64,000 nt of DNA from Siphonobacter curvatus (GTDB taxonomy: Bacteria; Bacteroidota; Bacteroidia; Cytophagales; Spirosomataceae), in the NCBI RefSeq assembly GCF_002943425.1, contig NZ_PTRA01000001.1, positions 868,001-932,000 of the forward strand, in the 5' to 3' direction. The notes under the pieces are model-generated. The model made no database searches. It worked only from the letters and a program-made list of their open reading frames with translations, and was not told the DNA's origin. The position numbers and the translations under genes are program-made. Below are positions 6,255-56,024 of this stretch, in pieces. Position 1 is the first letter of the stretch. Each line of letters starts with the position of its first letter.

Positions 6255-8740
6255 CAGAACGTGTAGTTAATGGTTACTAACGAATTGGAAGGAGCACCCG
6301 GGAAAAGGCGGATGTAATCATACCCACCTACCCAGTACGTTTTATTCGTCAGGTTGTTGAGGTTGTATTGCAACTGAACGCGACCTACGTTGTAATACAG
6401 AGCTGCATTGAAAATCTGAAACGAAGGAATGCTCTGGTCAAGACTGATGGACAGATTGCGTTTATCCACAAAGTTGGTGCCGAAGCCCACGCCAAGGCCC
6501 TTCAGGGCACCCTGCGGAATGGAATAGCGGGTCCAGAAGTTGAACATATTACGCGGAGCGTTGGGCTTTTGAATGTTACGCTCAGCTTCGGTTAGCGTTT
6601 CGGTGATCTGTGCTTTGTTGAACGAGTAAGAGGCAATGACGCTCCAGTTTGGGAGAATCCGGCCAATAATGTCGAACTCGAACCCACGCGATTCTTCAGC
6701 ACCAATCTGACGCAGCAAATCCGGGTTCTGCGGATCGTTGGCGTTATAAAGCGTGTTTTTCTGCTTGATTTGATAAACCGCGAACGAAGCTGTCAGTCGG
6801 TCGTCGAACCAACTGGATTTACCACCCACCTCAACCATGTTGCTTTCTAGGGGTTTGAATGGACCACCTGCGTTGGGGTTAGCTATGTTAGAAGCCGTTT
6901 GTGGGTTGTAGCCTTGTACATACGTCGCATACAGATTGATGTTCGACGTAGCCGTAAATACTAAGCCAAAACGAGGCAGCCACGCCGACTGATTTGTCTT
7001 CTTCTCATCCTTGGTTTTGTACTTGTCAAAGTCGGTGTAGTTTTCGTACCGTACGCCCAGTAAGGCCTGAAAACGACCAATCTTGATCTGATCCTGAATA
7101 TAACCGGCGTTCAGATAGTAGTAAGTAGGATCAAACGAACGCTGAGCGTAAAACAGCTTGCTATCGTCTTGAATGCGTTGCGAGTTCAGAATATTGCTTA
7201 AGTCAAAGTGAGGAACGTTCGGCACCGGATTCCCGCTGGCATCCAGTAAATAGCGGGATTTGTTCGCCGGATTGTAGGTAGCGATGAATCCGTTATTGGC
7301 CGCATTACGGTACCCACTGGCTTGCAGTTGCGATCCACCCACGGGCAGTTTTTCACTACCGTAATCATACCCCGCTACAATACGGTGTTCCAGAGGCCCC
7401 GTCGATCCTTCCAGGTTGAAGTATCCAGAAAAGTTATCGATGTACCGGTTTCGTTTCCGCATAAATACCTGCATGGCGATTTTGTCAGGTTGCGTAGCTC
7501 CGGTAGCATCCACACCATAGGCGTTGGCTGAACGGTGTTCATACAAATCTTCCGAATAACCGGTCTTCATGTAAGCCGCATTGAAACTCAGCCAGTTGGT
7601 TAGCTTCCGACTCAACGACAGGGAAACGTTGTACGTCTGCTCGTTGAGGTAGTCATTGCCGGTACTCAAAGCCAGGGAAGTGGGTGTGGAGTACAAATCA
7701 TTGGTATTCATGATCGACTGGCCACGATCCAGACGGCTTTTGGAGTTGTTGTACACCAGATCAAAATTGATCCGGGTTTTGTCGTTAGGCAGGAAGGAGA
7801 ACGAAGGAGCGATAATTAGGTTTTTGTCGAACTGCAAATCCCGGAATGACTGGGCATCTTCGTAACCCAAATTGATGCGATACAGCAGCGAACTGTCTTT
7901 ATTGGCCGGACCCGTAAAGTCGAGTAAGGTTCGTAAGGTATTGAAACTACCCAGCGATATACTAACGGATTTCCGGTTTTCATCGAGTGGTTTCTTCGTA
8001 ACCCGGTTCACCGTTCCGCCGGGGCTAGCGTTGCCGTATAATGCGGATGACGGGCCTTTCAGTACTTCTACCCGTTCCAGATAATTGGCTAGAGGTTGCT
8101 TCCAGAAACCCGTGCTCGTACGCAGTCCATTCAGCAATTGCGTATTGGACTGGCCGTTGATCCGGAATCCACGGATGGTCAAATCATCGTAAAAGGTAAA
8201 CTGCGTCACGCCACTGAAGTTTTTTACTACTTCACCCACTCGCATCAGACCCTGATCAGCAATCAGTTCTTTACTGGCGTACGAAACCGACTGCGGTAAA
8301 TCTTTGATCTGCGTAGCTGATTTACTACCGATAAAGGTCGAGCTGGTTTTGTAGGTGGTTTCTTTGCGACCCACAATTTCCACCTGTTGCAAAGCAGTAC
8401 TCGTCGAGGCCAGTACAATCGTCAGGTCAATACCACCCGTAGCGGGCAGGCGTACGGTATGTTTCTGCGTTTCGTAGCCCACACTGCTAAAATGGAGGGT
8501 ATAGGAGCGTCCAGATTCGAGCTGCAGTTGAAAAACACCCGTTTCACTGGAACTGGTGCCCGTATGATGCGAAGGAACCGTAATGTGAACAGCGGGCAGG
8601 AAGTGACCCGCAGCGTCTTGGACTAGCCCCTGAATGACACCGTTGGGCAAATCGGCATTTTTTTTCTGATCCTGAGCTTGGACCAGTTGAAAGGATACTA
8701 ATAAGGCAAGGTAAACCAGGGAAAGAAAGATAGATTTCAT
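6254..8740 (-). CDS. TonB-dependent siderophore receptor
   Basis: An 828-residue outer-membrane receptor. A signal peptide (cleavage after VQAQ, about residue 22) is followed by a CarboxypepD_reg-like domain (about 33-112), a plug domain with the siderophore-receptor signature IKDLPQSVSY and LERVEVLKGPSSALYG, and a beta-barrel ending in the aromatic C-terminus VTINYTF. The plug pattern matches the FhuA/FpvA ferric-siderophore class, not SusC. It imports ferric siderophore using TonB energy. It is co-transcribed with the downstream PepSY membrane protein. A -7 box (TATTTTTG on the minus strand, 8792-8785) lies 45 bp before the start. I see no Fur box. Confidence 0.92.
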   Translation of the reverse strand: MKSIFLSLVYLALLVSFQLVQAQDQKKNADLPNGVIQGLVQDAAGHFLPAVHITVPSHHTGTSSSETGVFQLQLESGRSYTLHFSSVGYETQKHTVRLPATGGIDLTIVLASTSTALQQVEIVGRKETTYKTSSTFIGSKSATQIKDLPQSVSYASKELIADQGLMRVGEVVKNFSGVTQFTFYDDLTIRGFRINGQSNTQLLNGLRTSTGFWKQPLANYLERVEVLKGPSSALYGNASPGGTVNRVTKKPLDENRKSVSISLGSFNTLRTLLDFTGPANKDSSLLYRINLGYEDAQSFRDLQFDKNLIIAPSFSFLPNDKTRINFDLVYNNSKSRLDRGQSIMNTNDLYSTPTSLALSTGNDYLNEQTYNVSLSLSRKLTNWLSFNAAYMKTGYSEDLYEHRSANAYGVDATGATQPDKIAMQVFMRKRNRYIDNFSGYFNLEGSTGPLEHRIVAGYDYGSEKLPVGGSQLQASGYRNAANNGFIATYNPANKSRYLLDASGNPVPNVPHFDLSNILNSQRIQDDSKLFYAQRSFDPTYYYLNAGYIQDQIKIGRFQALLGVRYENYTDFDKYKTKDEKKTNQSAWLPRFGLVFTATSNINLYATYVQGYNPQTASNIANPNAGGPFKPLESNMVEVGGKSSWFDDRLTASFAVYQIKQKNTLYNANDPQNPDLLRQIGAEESRGFEFDIIGRILPNWSVIASYSFNKAQITETLTEAERNIQKPNAPRNMFNFWTRYSIPQGALKGLGVGFGTNFVDKRNLSISLDQSIPSFQIFNAALYYNVGRVQLQYNLNNLTNKTYWVGGYDYIRLFPGAPSNSLVTINYTF

Positions 8741-8784
8741 CGATACATAGAGTTAGTTGTTATTTAGATTAAATAAAAACAACG

Positions 8785-51255: not shown

Positions 51256-52065
51256 ATGAGTAAACTCCGGATTTTGTACGTTGCCAGTGAGATCAATCCC
51301 TTTCTTCAAATCACAGACGTTGCCGAATACGTGCGAAAACTTCCCCAGGCGATGCAAGAGCGGGGCATGGAAATCCGGATACTGGTTCCCCGGTTTGGAC
51401 TGATTAACGAACGCAAAAATCGCCTTCATGAAGTCGTCCGCCTTTCCGGAATCAATATTTCAGTCGGGGACGACGAAAAGCCGCTGGTTATTAAAGTGGC
51501 TTCCGTTCCAAGTGCCAAACTGCAGGTCTACTTTATTGACAACGAAGACTATTTCCACCGGAAATCAGTATTCTTCGATAAAGACGAGAAATTCTACGAT
51601 GATAACGACGAACGGGCCATTTTCTTTTGCAAAGGCGTGATTGAAACCGTTCGAAAATTAGGCTGGTCTCCCGATATCGTTCACTGTAACGACTGGATGA
51701 CGGCTTTGATTCCGCTGTATCTGAAAACGACCTACCGCAATGATCCCATGTTTAAGGACACGAAGTCGGTATTTTCAGTCTACAACAACCCCTTTAGTTA
51801 CAAATTTACTGAAGAGCTGCTCGACAAGGTGAAAGCCATGGACATCGAAGATGACATGTTATCCAGCCTGAGCTCGCTCGATTACGATGGCTTTATTAAA
51901 ATTGGTGCTCAGTACGCCGATGTCGTCGTAAAAGCGGAGGAAGATTACAGCGAAAGCGTTAATCAAATTCTGAATGACATTCCTGATAAGAAGGTAGAAT
52001 TACCCGAAGAACAGGAAGAAATGTCCGATAAATTTTACTCCCTTTACACGGAGTTAATGAGTTAG
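51256..52065 (+). CDS. degenerate starch/glycogen-synthase (GT5 N-terminal domain) protein
   Basis: A 269-residue protein that resembles only the N-terminal half of GT5 glycogen synthase: ILYVASEINPF (6-16), DNEDYFHRKSVFFDKDEKFYDD-type segments, SPDIVHCNDWMTALIPLYL. A GT5 enzyme needs two Rossmann domains and a KTGGLGDV-type loop after the ASEVxPF motif. Here that loop reads LQITDVAEYVRKLP (17-30), and the C-terminal catalytic half is absent. It is therefore probably not a working synthase. Such short proteins next to panC occur in Bacteroidota and are conserved in place, so it is likely a functional protein of unknown role. The acidic C-terminus is not explained. Confidence 0.78.
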   Translation: MSKLRILYVASEINPFLQITDVAEYVRKLPQAMQERGMEIRILVPRFGLINERKNRLHEVVRLSGINISVGDDEKPLVIKVASVPSAKLQVYFIDNEDYFHRKSVFFDKDEKFYDDNDERAIFFCKGVIETVRKLGWSPDIVHCNDWMTALIPLYLKTTYRNDPMFKDTKSVFSVYNNPFSYKFTEELLDKVKAMDIEDDMLSSLSSLDYDGFIKIGAQYADVVVKAEEDYSESVNQILNDIPDKKVELPEEQEEMSDKFYSLYTELMS

Positions 52066-52094: not shown

Positions 52095-52127
52095 AGCCGC
52101 CCGTCGTAAGACAGGCGGCTTTTTTTG
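52095..52127 (+). terminator. intrinsic terminator of the GT5-like gene
   Basis: AGCCGCC (52095-52101) pairs with GGCGGCT (52114-52120), extended by GTC/GAC inside, followed by TTTTTTTGTG. Confidence 0.85.
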
Positions 52128-52290
52128 TGTCTTCTTCGCAGGAAATGATAACTTTTTATGAAGTAAAGTGATACGTAAAGACAGGCATTTTTCTGTGCAA
52201 TGAATTAGCAATTAGAAGGATGTGTTTACGGTCCTTTTGGGCAGTTGAAAGTATTGATAAAAGGTAGTGTTAAGCAACAAAATGGAAGTG

Positions 52291-52298
52291 TATCTTTG
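52291..52298 (+). promoter_or_regulatory. -7 promoter box (TATCTTTG) of the secreted metalloprotease
   Basis: A perfect TAnnTTTG 42 bp before ATG 52341, directly abutting a run of 12 C. Transcription initiates 5-8 nt after such a box, i.e. inside the C-run. Confidence 0.6.
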
Positions 52299-52310
52299 CC
52301 CCCCCCCCCC
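52299..52310 (+). repeat. poly(C) tract, 12 bases, at the metalloprotease transcription start
   Basis: A homopolymer of 12 cytosines follows the -7 box directly and ends 30 bp before the start codon. It is the longest homopolymer I see in the window. Its place in the promoter fits slippage-based on/off control, or a slippery initiation site. Assembly error at the run is possible. Confidence 0.85.
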
Positions 52311-52340
52311 TTTAAAATTGTCCATTTTACCTCCATTGAA

Positions 52341-55300
52341 ATGATTTTACCTTTACCTACCCGTATCCCTTTAGATAACTTTATACGTCTACATTTTTTC
52401 ACTATTAAAAGACGTACTCAGGGATTTACTTTAGTCTGGTTTTTCCTCTTCATCAGTCTTTTCTCGCAGGCACAAACCGTACCGTTGAGCTGCGGAACAC
52501 CTGCTCCTAAAAACAATACTGAATTTAGAGAGTGGATCAAACGTTCCAAAATGGCTGGTGGAAGAGTAGCTACTACGCCCGTTACGATACCCCTTGCCTT
52601 TACCATTCTCCGACCATCGGCTGAAGCTGGCCGGGCGGTGAATGCCGATGAAAAGCACTACATCGCTCAAAACATGTACTGGCTGGAAAAATTTTACCGG
52701 GGCAGTAATATCAGCTTTTACATTACTTCTGTAAAAATACTTGCAAACACGGCCTATCATGAAGGAGAGGTTGATCCACTCACGTACGTGAATCAACTGG
52801 AAAAAAATGCGGCTAACGTCATCATATCTTCTATGAGAAATGGTATTTATGTCGGTTACGCAGGATACGCTTATTATCCATCTTCCATCGGTCAAGGCTC
52901 AAACCTGATTGTTTTAAATGAAAATAGTTATAAATATCAGGATAACTTATTGCCCCACGAAATAGGCCATTACCTGAATCTTTATCACACTTTTGACGCC
53001 GTAGGTGGGAACGAATTAGTGGATGGTTCCAACTGTGCAACGGCCGGAGATATGGTTTGTGATACGCCCGCCGATATAACAGGTGTAGCCGGCATATCAA
53101 TCAGTAATTGCGTGTATACGGGTACTCCTGTGGATGCGAAAGGTATGTTATATAAGCCCGATACGAAAAACCTGATGAGTTACTGGCATTCGTATGGCTG
53201 TCAGACCGATCATTTTTCAGCGGGGCAGTTTGATCGGGCGTATAATGGCTATTGGTTTCGAATGAACAACCCGGGGTACGGTGATGATCAATACAATCTT
53301 TCAGCCAGTCCCAAAGGCTCTGCTTATAATCTAAAACTTCAACGGGCTGATGCAACCAATTTGGCCCTCGTTTTCGAGACGCAGCAAACGGAAGATAACC
53401 TAGGTTTTCTGGTTGAGTATGCCGATAGTGAAAAGGGTCCTTGGCAAATTAGCCCCACTATTTTAAACTCTTCAGAGGCACAATACCCTATAGATCTTGG
53501 GAAAGAGAACTTCTTTCGAATAAGACCTTTATCCTCACCCTATTATTCAAACGTCGCCAAATACACGCCCGGAAAACCACAAGAGTTGTACGTTGACTAT
53601 CTTCCTGGTGATCAGGTTTATCGGGAAAACCTTTCGTTTCAGTTGAAAGTACGGGCCAGTTCGGGTTTACCCGTCACGTATCGCTTGCTTGCGGGGAATG
53701 CAGAACTCAGTGAACAGGGACTATTGAAGATAAAAGGACCCAGTTGGATTAATATTGAAATTGCTCAAAAAGGCAATGAGGAATGGGAACCCTATTGGAC
53801 CACTTATTCCATGCAGGTATCGAAAGCAGTGCAACAAGTCGACCTGAGTACGATTACCCCTAAAACCTTTGGTGATCCACCTTTTGAAATTACAGCTACG
53901 GCGAGTTCCGGTCTGCCTATAGTGTATGCAGTGGCAGGTCCTGCCACCCTATCGGGCAACCGCGTGACGATCACTGGAGCCGGCCAAATTCTGATCAGTG
54001 CGTATCAGCAGGGAAATGCAAACTATATGTCTGCCGAAGCCCGGCAATACATTACGGTAGCCAAAGCTAATCAGAGTATACAGTTTGACGCAATTAGTTC
54101 GAAAACCTACGGGGATGCTCCTTTTACGCTGTCGGCTCGTGCTTCCACGGGTTTACCCGTAACGTTTGAAAAAAGCGGACCGGTACAGATTTCGGGTAAT
54201 CAGGTCACCCTGACCGGAGCGGGGGAAGCGACGATCCTGGCCAAACAGCCGGGCAACGAGAACTACAACGCCGCCCCAGAGGTCCTGCAAAAACTCAGCA
54301 TTGCCAAAGCCGAACAAACCCTTTCGCTGGCGGCCATTCCGGATAAAACCATTGGCGATCCTGATTTTCAGCTGGAGGTACGAACGTCTTCGGGATTACC
54401 GGCGGTACTGACCGTTAGCGGCCCCGCCGAAGTAGTGGGTACGACGGTAAAACTGAAAGGAGCGGGTCAGGTGACGATCACTGCCAGTCAGCCCGGTAAC
54501 GAAAATTACCTACCCACGGCCGCTTCCGTAAGCCAGCGATTTACCGTAGCCAAAGGCAATCAGACGGTTCGTATGCAACCCATAGCCGATCGTACCTACG
54601 GGGATGGCGATATTATGGTCGGGGCCTCAGCCAGCTCGGGCTTGCCCGTAGCCATTACGGTGACGGGGCCCGCCTCGGTAGCCGATGGTTCGCTTAAGAT
54701 TACCGGAGCGGGTACGGTAACGGTTACCATTGCTCAGAGTGGTAATGATAGCTATTATCCAGCTCCATCGGTTACCCAAACGTTTACCGTGCATAAACTC
54801 AAACAGCAGATTTCGCTTGACGAACTAGCCAATCGTACGTACGGGGATGTGGATTTCGATCTTTCCGCTCGAATTAACTCCGGCTTAGGGTTGCAAATCA
54901 GTAGTACGGGACCCGTAGTTCTTACCGGGACGAAAGTCCGAATTACCGGTGCGGGCGTGGCTCGGATTACGCTCAACCAACCCGGTGACGCCAATCACGA
55001 AGCAGCCCCGGAGGTGAGTCGCGAGTTTACTATTGTGAAACGACAGCTGGTCTTGACGTTCCCGGAGCTGGGAACGCGAGACTATTCCAGTACCCCCTTT
55101 GCGTTACAGGCCCAAAGTAACGCCACCTTACCGGTTCAGTACCAGGTGAAAGGCCCCGCCCAGCTGCTGGAAGGTAATCGTTTACAACTAACGGGGATTG
55201 GTGAAGTGAAAATAACGGCTCTACAGGCGGGGGATGCCAACCATGAAACGGCCCAGCCCATCACACGGACGTTTACCGTACAGAAAGCCCGGCAGCTTAT

Positions 55301-56024
55301 TGCGTGGGAAACGGTCGCTTCGCTTGCGTTCGGCAAGGGAACCTACAGCCTGCCGACGCTCAGTAACACGCAGTTGCCCATCCAGTATCGGGTTGTTAGT
55401 GGTCCGGCTACGGTTGCTGGGGCAACGCTGAGTTTTACGGATTACGGAAAAGTAACTGTAGTAGCCAGCCAGCCGGGCGATGATAAACACCTCGCCGCTC
55501 CGGAGCTGAGCCAGACCTTCTGCGTTAATCCTGAAAAGCCCACCATTACGGCGGAAAACAGTCTTACATTGGTATCCTCCAGCCCGTATCGGAATGTATG
55601 GCTACTGGGTAACGATACGCTGAGTAATGAAACGCAGCAGAAAATCCGGGTTACCCGTCCGGGTGAGTACCGGGTGCTGGCGTACAATCCGGATGCCAGT
55701 TGCCAGTCGGTACAGACGTCTAATGCCTTCCAACTGATCATTACTTCGGTAGAACCCCGTGCGACTACATCCGTAACCCTGGCACCCAACCCGGCTCGGG
55801 ATGAAGTGTTGTTGCAGGTACAACTAAAACCTGCTCTGCGTACACCCACCTACGTGCTGTACAATTCGCTGGGGAAAGCCGTGACCGCCGAACAGCCTTT
55901 AACGTATCTGAATGAGGCTTACCAGGGCCGCCTGACCGTTCGATCCCTACCGGCGGGCCTGTACCTGGTTCGTATTACAACAGCGGACGAGCATTTAATG
56001 TATAAACTCATCGTTAATCCCTAA
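52341..56024 (+). CDS. secreted metalloprotease (M43-like metzincin) with seven MBG-like repeats and a type IX sorting signal
   Basis: A 1,227-residue protein. A signal peptide with a long n-region ends near SLFSQAQ (about residue 45). The catalytic domain has HEIGHYLNLYH (His206, Glu207, His210, His216) and the Met-turn LMSYW (Met279), so it is a metzincin of the pregnancy-associated plasma protein-A/M43 type. A degenerate unit and seven repeats of about 81 residues follow, each with a ThrTyrGlyAsp-type and SGLPV motif, as in MBG/YDG adhesin-like domains. The C-terminus (LAPNPARDEVLLQ, KLIVNP) is a T9SS C-terminal domain. It would be exported across the outer membrane. Start 52341 is chosen because the upstream TTG frame crosses the C-run. 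Confidence 0.88.
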   Translation: MILPLPTRIPLDNFIRLHFFTIKRRTQGFTLVWFFLFISLFSQAQTVPLSCGTPAPKNNTEFREWIKRSKMAGGRVATTPVTIPLAFTILRPSAEAGRAVNADEKHYIAQNMYWLEKFYRGSNISFYITSVKILANTAYHEGEVDPLTYVNQLEKNAANVIISSMRNGIYVGYAGYAYYPSSIGQGSNLIVLNENSYKYQDNLLPHEIGHYLNLYHTFDAVGGNELVDGSNCATAGDMVCDTPADITGVAGISISNCVYTGTPVDAKGMLYKPDTKNLMSYWHSYGCQTDHFSAGQFDRAYNGYWFRMNNPGYGDDQYNLSASPKGSAYNLKLQRADATNLALVFETQQTEDNLGFLVEYADSEKGPWQISPTILNSSEAQYPIDLGKENFFRIRPLSSPYYSNVAKYTPGKPQELYVDYLPGDQVYRENLSFQLKVRASSGLPVTYRLLAGNAELSEQGLLKIKGPSWINIEIAQKGNEEWEPYWTTYSMQVSKAVQQVDLSTITPKTFGDPPFEITATASSGLPIVYAVAGPATLSGNRVTITGAGQILISAYQQGNANYMSAEARQYITVAKANQSIQFDAISSKTYGDAPFTLSARASTGLPVTFEKSGPVQISGNQVTLTGAGEATILAKQPGNENYNAAPEVLQKLSIAKAEQTLSLAAIPDKTIGDPDFQLEVRTSSGLPAVLTVSGPAEVVGTTVKLKGAGQVTITASQPGNENYLPTAASVSQRFTVAKGNQTVRMQPIADRTYGDGDIMVGASASSGLPVAITVTGPASVADGSLKITGAGTVTVTIAQSGNDSYYPAPSVTQTFTVHKLKQQISLDELANRTYGDVDFDLSARINSGLGLQISSTGPVVLTGTKVRITGAGVARITLNQPGDANHEAAPEVSREFTIVKRQLVLTFPELGTRDYSSTPFALQAQSNATLPVQYQVKGPAQLLEGNRLQLTGIGEVKITALQAGDANHETAQPITRTFTVQKARQLIAWETVASLAFGKGTYSLPTLSNTQLPIQYRVVSGPATVAGATLSFTDYGKVTVVASQPGDDKHLAAPELSQTFCVNPEKPTITAENSLTLVSSSPYRNVWLLGNDTLSNETQQKIRVTRPGEYRVLAYNPDASCQSVQTSNAFQLIITSVEPRATTSVTLAPNPARDEVLLQVQLKPALRTPTYVLYNSLGKAVTAEQPLTYLNEAYQGRLTVRSLPAGLYLVRITTADEHLMYKLIVNP
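53823..55541 (+). repeat. seven tandem ~243-bp repeats in the metalloprotease
   Basis: Seven units of about 81 residues each share a pattern ...KTYGD..F.L.A..SSGLPV....GPA....V.ITGAG.V.I.A.QPGN..Y..A..V.Q.F.V.K. They differ at many positions, so they are diverged, not recent, duplications. Confidence 0.85.

Follow-up and report, generated by a model that had tools for sequence, protein, structure and literature searches.

Does a run of twelve cytosines in the promoter region of a secreted metalloprotease gene of Siphonobacter curvatus act as an expression switch, or is it a repeat that this lineage happens to carry? In the window (the whole 64,000-nt stretch analyzed here, from a genome of 6.39 Mb in 19 contigs), TATCTTTG, which fits the Bacteroidota −7 box TAnnTTTG exactly, directly abuts a C12 run that ends 30 nt before the ATG at 52341. 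The coordinates and run length given by an initial annotation are exact; its reading of the arrangement was slippage-driven on/off control of the protease. Because Siphonobacter sp. BAB-5405, the one close relative in which the gene was found, has no pure run, C12 seems more likely to be a repeat of recent origin and without selection than an evolved on/off switch. We give slightly better than even chances to an ordinary, probably sigma-A-type promoter of the T9SS protease gene with a lineage-specific, unselected homopolymer. The features of the region are as follows.

52095-52126, + strand: intrinsic terminator of the upstream glycogen/starch-synthase-like gene (terminator scan), largely kept in BAB-5405 with one gap and one substitution
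52127-52230, no strand assigned: conserved upstream block, possible regulatory DNA or alternative promoter region, 95.2% identity to BAB-5405
52231-52290, no strand assigned: fast-diverging 60 nt directly 5' of the box, 71.7% identity to BAB-5405 (Fisher p = 5.5e-5 versus the block upstream)
52291-52298, + strand: −7 box match TATCTTTG, exact TAnnTTTG; TATCTTTA in BAB-5405
52299-52310, + strand: C12 homopolymer holding the predicted +1 (about 52303); CCAACCCCC in BAB-5405
52311-52340, + strand: remainder of the predicted leader, 93.3% identity to BAB-5405 from run to ATG, no notable RNA fold
52341-56024, + strand: predicted secreted M43-like metalloprotease of 1,227 aa with a C-terminal T9SS sorting domain and the motif HEIGHYLNLYH at residue 206

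The downstream gene is what it had been taken for, a secreted, T9SS-tailed, M43-like protease. Its product matches PF05572 (Peptidase_M43; 3e-7, residues 159-249) and the T9SS sorting tail PF18962 (1.4e-8), with TIGR04183 also matched, and the HEXXHxxxxxH motif is intact; SprA, the T9SS component searched for, is present in the genome (2,179.9 bits). Within the first 40 codons of the open reading frame, ATG 52341 is the sole ATG, GTG, or TTG. The gene is under purifying selection between S. curvatus and BAB-5405, as dN/dS is 0.22 over the whole gene and 0.16 for residues 49 to 340.

Because the terminator separates the protease gene from the glycogen/starch-synthase-like gene (51256-52065), which ends 5' of it at 52065, the protease gene appears to need its own promoter. 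The upstream gene encodes 269 aa; its matches to GlgA models score under the cut-offs and cover only about their N-terminal half. No exact TAnnTTTG other than TATCTTTG lies between terminator and ATG. If this box is placed as in Flavobacterium psychrophilum, where it is described at −12 to −5 (PMC9723704), transcription would begin near 52303, the fifth C of the run, with a leader of about 38 nt; the geometry thus supports the earlier proposal of a start inside the tract. The leader has no RNA family match above gathering score and an unremarkable fold (z = −0.77), and a structured leader or known RNA family was rejected on these results. The sigma-A −33 element (TTTG/TTG) is missing, as the 26 nt preceding the box hold no TTG, and in F. 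johnsoniae this element has been reported as not identifiable, hence no strict requirement. As a genome-wide promoter detector the combined consensus was discarded as uninformative, with 77 TTG-N18-TAnnTTTG sites against 90 controls. The exact box by itself is weak evidence of a promoter, since the window contains 29 exact matches on both strands against about 31 expected under an iid model (a hand estimate), and a chance match turns up in about 19% of Markov-simulated upstream regions. We nevertheless consider that the site is probably the sigma-A-type promoter of the protease gene.

The comparison that bears most on the run is with BAB-5405 (genome G178), the one close relative found carrying the full-length gene. 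A full-length homologue occurs in two of six genus genomes, S. curvatus included, and in a contig search the BAB-5405 locus was the sole full-length one among six, from which near-identical records may be omitted. The two genomes share 92.4% identity over 12.6 kb at this locus, and the BAB-5405 site reads TATCTTTA-CCAACCCCC-TTTAAAAATTG: the run is broken by AA, leaving no pure run, and the box is without its last base, G. Directly 5' of the box, 17 of 60 positions differ, compared to 5 of 104 in the preceding block; this divergence exceeds that of synonymous sites in the protease gene (dS 0.175). Inside this diverging stretch, the TATCTTT of the box is conserved. As a yardstick BAB-5405 is weakened by a frameshift in its 1,251-aa open reading frame (near position 8640-8756 of locus L033), which alters the last residues, so that the T9SS sorting tail has a different end. 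Its protease may therefore be impaired, and its copy could be decaying, with the promoter changes reflecting that decay. With just one comparison genome carrying the full-length gene, the direction of change is unpolarized, and which state is older cannot be said; an unstable locus could also itself look divergent.

How unusual the run appears depends on scale. In the 64-kb window, C12 is the sole C or G run of at least 7, and a run of at least 11 arose in none of 50 base shuffles of the window. At genome scale, 0.5 C/G runs of at least 12 are expected under an iid model, and C12 is present in 33 of 181 family genomes (S. curvatus counted), making it less striking on that scale than within the window. 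The S. curvatus genome has seven C/G runs of at least 9, of which C12 is the longest, against 33 expected from base composition alone. The other five genus genomes have 2, 4, 4, 8, and 10 (the last including two mirror pairs), and an unusual tract load was ruled out on these counts.

Nor does the pairing of box and run stand out as a class. A box followed by C8 occurs once in the 6.4-Mb genome. In the family, box plus C7 is found at 15 sites in 14 of 222 genomes (S. curvatus included) compared to 12 reversed-pattern control sites, so it is not clearly enriched. Among 30 C12 loci examined of the 56 listed for the family, TAnnTTTG lies at most 60 nt upstream in four, S. curvatus included, and S. 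curvatus alone has a box abutting the run. The genus has 35 C/G runs of at least 9; the 30 loci read represent 29 distinct sites (two mirror pairs included, 16 sites called intergenic), and in S. curvatus alone does TAnnTTTG precede the run by at most 60 nt. On the single genome site and the C7 counts we rejected the idea of a promoter family of box plus poly(C), and neither the genome nor the genus and family searched show a conspicuous class of this kind. At the level of the order (390 genomes) there is a hint of a small excess, with box plus C9 at five sites, S. curvatus and four others, versus no controls. The contexts of the four are dissimilar: two (L092, L094) lie inside open reading frames, a C12 site (L093) has no downstream same-strand ATG-start open reading frame of at least 60 aa in the stretch examined, and L095 (the same site as L021) lies 79 nt 5' of a 159-aa frame, so that one of the four is just upstream of a same-strand frame. 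A C10 site from the family search (L027) has no same-strand open reading frame start within 480 nt.

We favor the ordinary promoter with an unselected run because the site differs in BAB-5405 while the protease is under purifying selection, the 60 nt 5' of the box have diverged far more than the block further upstream, the arrangement is unique in a genome of ordinary run load and unsupported by the family C7 counts, and a terminator precedes the sole exact box before the ATG. On this explanation, the first transcribed bases in this lineage would be a pure C12, probably built by substitution and replication slippage beside a fast-changing stretch, with transcription probably starting about five bases into the run. 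Run length may drift, which would imply no selected switch; drift, if it had any effect, would alter the efficiency of initiation or the length of the leader by degrees. The explanation is weakened by the order-level box-plus-C9 sites, by the retention of TATCTTT in the diverging stretch, and by dependence on one comparison genome whose copy is possibly decaying.

An alternative hypothesis, possible though not the one we would choose, is that the box matches by chance and that the real promoter is another site between terminator and box, perhaps within the conserved block 52127-52230 or one served by an alternative sigma factor, so that the C run is merely 5' leader. The conservation of that block, the missing −33 TTG, the frequency of chance boxes, the lack of genome-wide enrichment, and the loss of the box's G in BAB-5405 though the gene is kept are all consistent with this; the box being the only exact one in the region, its plausible spacing from the ATG, and its conserved TATCTTT argue against it. 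A phase-variable promoter, in which slippage at C12 alters promoter output or leader function and so switches or grades protease expression, seems to us unlikely. A long pure tract does lie at the predicted promoter, a pure 12-mer should be long enough to slip, the protease is a secreted surface-type protein, the G(n) tract upstream of Moraxella catarrhalis uspA1 is described as grading transcription (PMC7302503), and BAB-5405, without the run, may itself be decaying. Against these points, neither the pure run nor the exact box is conserved in BAB-5405, the one relative available for comparing tract length, and genome, genus, and family show no conspicuous class of this kind. The run also lies downstream of the box, which argues against a classical spacing switch: changes in its length should leave both the −33/−7 spacing and the box-to-start distance unchanged while at least five C remain. 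Length effects without a change in spacing are possible by analogy with the tprL poly-G tract of Treponema pallidum. On/off control by slippage, as initially put forward, is thus not supported.

Two further readings carry much less weight. Nucleotide sensing at initiation, whereby polymerase slips on the C run or picks among C starts according to CTP level, would fit a predicted start within a homopolymer and has established precedent in the UTP-dependent reiterative transcription of Escherichia coli pyrBI, codBA, upp, and carAB (PMC6245113). As described there, those precedents respond to UTP through T runs of pyrimidine genes, whereas this protease gene has no pyrimidine link and its pure run is unconserved in BAB-5405; we regard sensing of CTP as very improbable. 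The initial annotation also raised the option of translation from TTG 52245, in which case slippage would cause frameshifts. In S. curvatus the frame is indeed open from that TTG through C12, but in BAB-5405 five of the 34 codons preceding the ATG are stops in this frame, and the last of them is followed by no ATG, GTG, or TTG; the added residues would precede an N-terminal region that, by eye, is already long and signal-like. This coding reading is contradicted by the relative's stops and missing start codon, was rejected on those grounds, and is hardly credible.

Several characterized systems resemble the site in part. In T. pallidum, the genes tprL and tprE, tprG, and tprJ, which encode putative outer-membrane proteins, likewise carry a G/C homopolymer in or close to the promoter core, and in the account given, the promoter-signature spacing of tprL is unaffected by the tract, as for C12 (PMC7864442). 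The tpr tracts vary in length in vivo and give different E. coli reporter output with 8 versus 10 G; for tprL, the tract is described as lying upstream of the starts and not being transcribed, in contrast to C12, which is downstream of the box (PMC7864442). Like C12, the uspA1 tract is a homopolymer upstream of a surface-protein open reading frame, yet it shows transcription graded by tract length (PMC7302503), an effect that for C12 would be hypothetical. The Bordetella fim poly(C) tracts are also C runs upstream of surface genes, and in Bordetella bronchiseptica assemblies poly(C) is described upstream of all predicted fimbrial genes of the fimX locus (PMC12952627). Unlike these, C12 is a single site, absent as a pure run in one relative. 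The E. coli reiterative promoters share with C12 a homopolymer in the initially transcribed region and differ in having T runs, pyrimidine-related genes, and demonstrated UTP control (PMC6245113). A search of the open-licence literature for homopolymer phase variation together with Bacteroidetes, type IX secretion, or Flavobacterium found no matching case.

The phylum Bacteroidota is better known for promoter inversion. If run length were to set protease output, this phylum would gain an example of a simple-sequence contingency promoter, and the site would offer a clean test of a polymerase start inside a homopolymer. We speculate, while holding it to be quite unlikely, that C12 is a newly arisen slippage or CTP-sensitive element through which the amount of a secreted protease varies by degrees from cell to cell in this Siphonobacter lineage. 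As things stand, the locus is a caution: a perfect-looking box and a long run can sit together in one lineage and be absent in a close relative.

The other six long C/G runs of S. curvatus lie in a fecR gene, in galK, in an outer-membrane barrel gene, and in three intergenic regions; comparison with BAB-5405 covered C12, the G11 run of the barrel gene, and the fecR run. The G11 run (259627-259637 on contig C5) is in an outer-membrane beta-barrel gene (PF13568; about 259.2-259.8 kb, L060:4577-5150) whose frame ends at the run after 145 aa while the rest of the homology continues in a different frame, so that the gene could be either decaying or a site of coding slippage. In the copy of BAB-5405 (L098) the run is interrupted and the open reading frame spans 257 aa, a parallel that fits the account of lineage-specific homopolymers. 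A G10 run (388239-388248 on contig C2) falls within a fecR-like gene (PF04773; L057:4764-5753) whose frame is open and which precedes a gene for a TonB-dependent receptor of 1,195 aa; slippage there would break the regulator; the region has no DNA match in BAB-5405, which by itself shows nothing. On contig C6 of another genome, G180, the C10 loci L110 and L123 are perfect reverse complements, as are L115 and L120 (3,010 of 3,010 bases each), and their mirror-symmetric arrangement suggests a large inverted duplication or an assembly palindrome.
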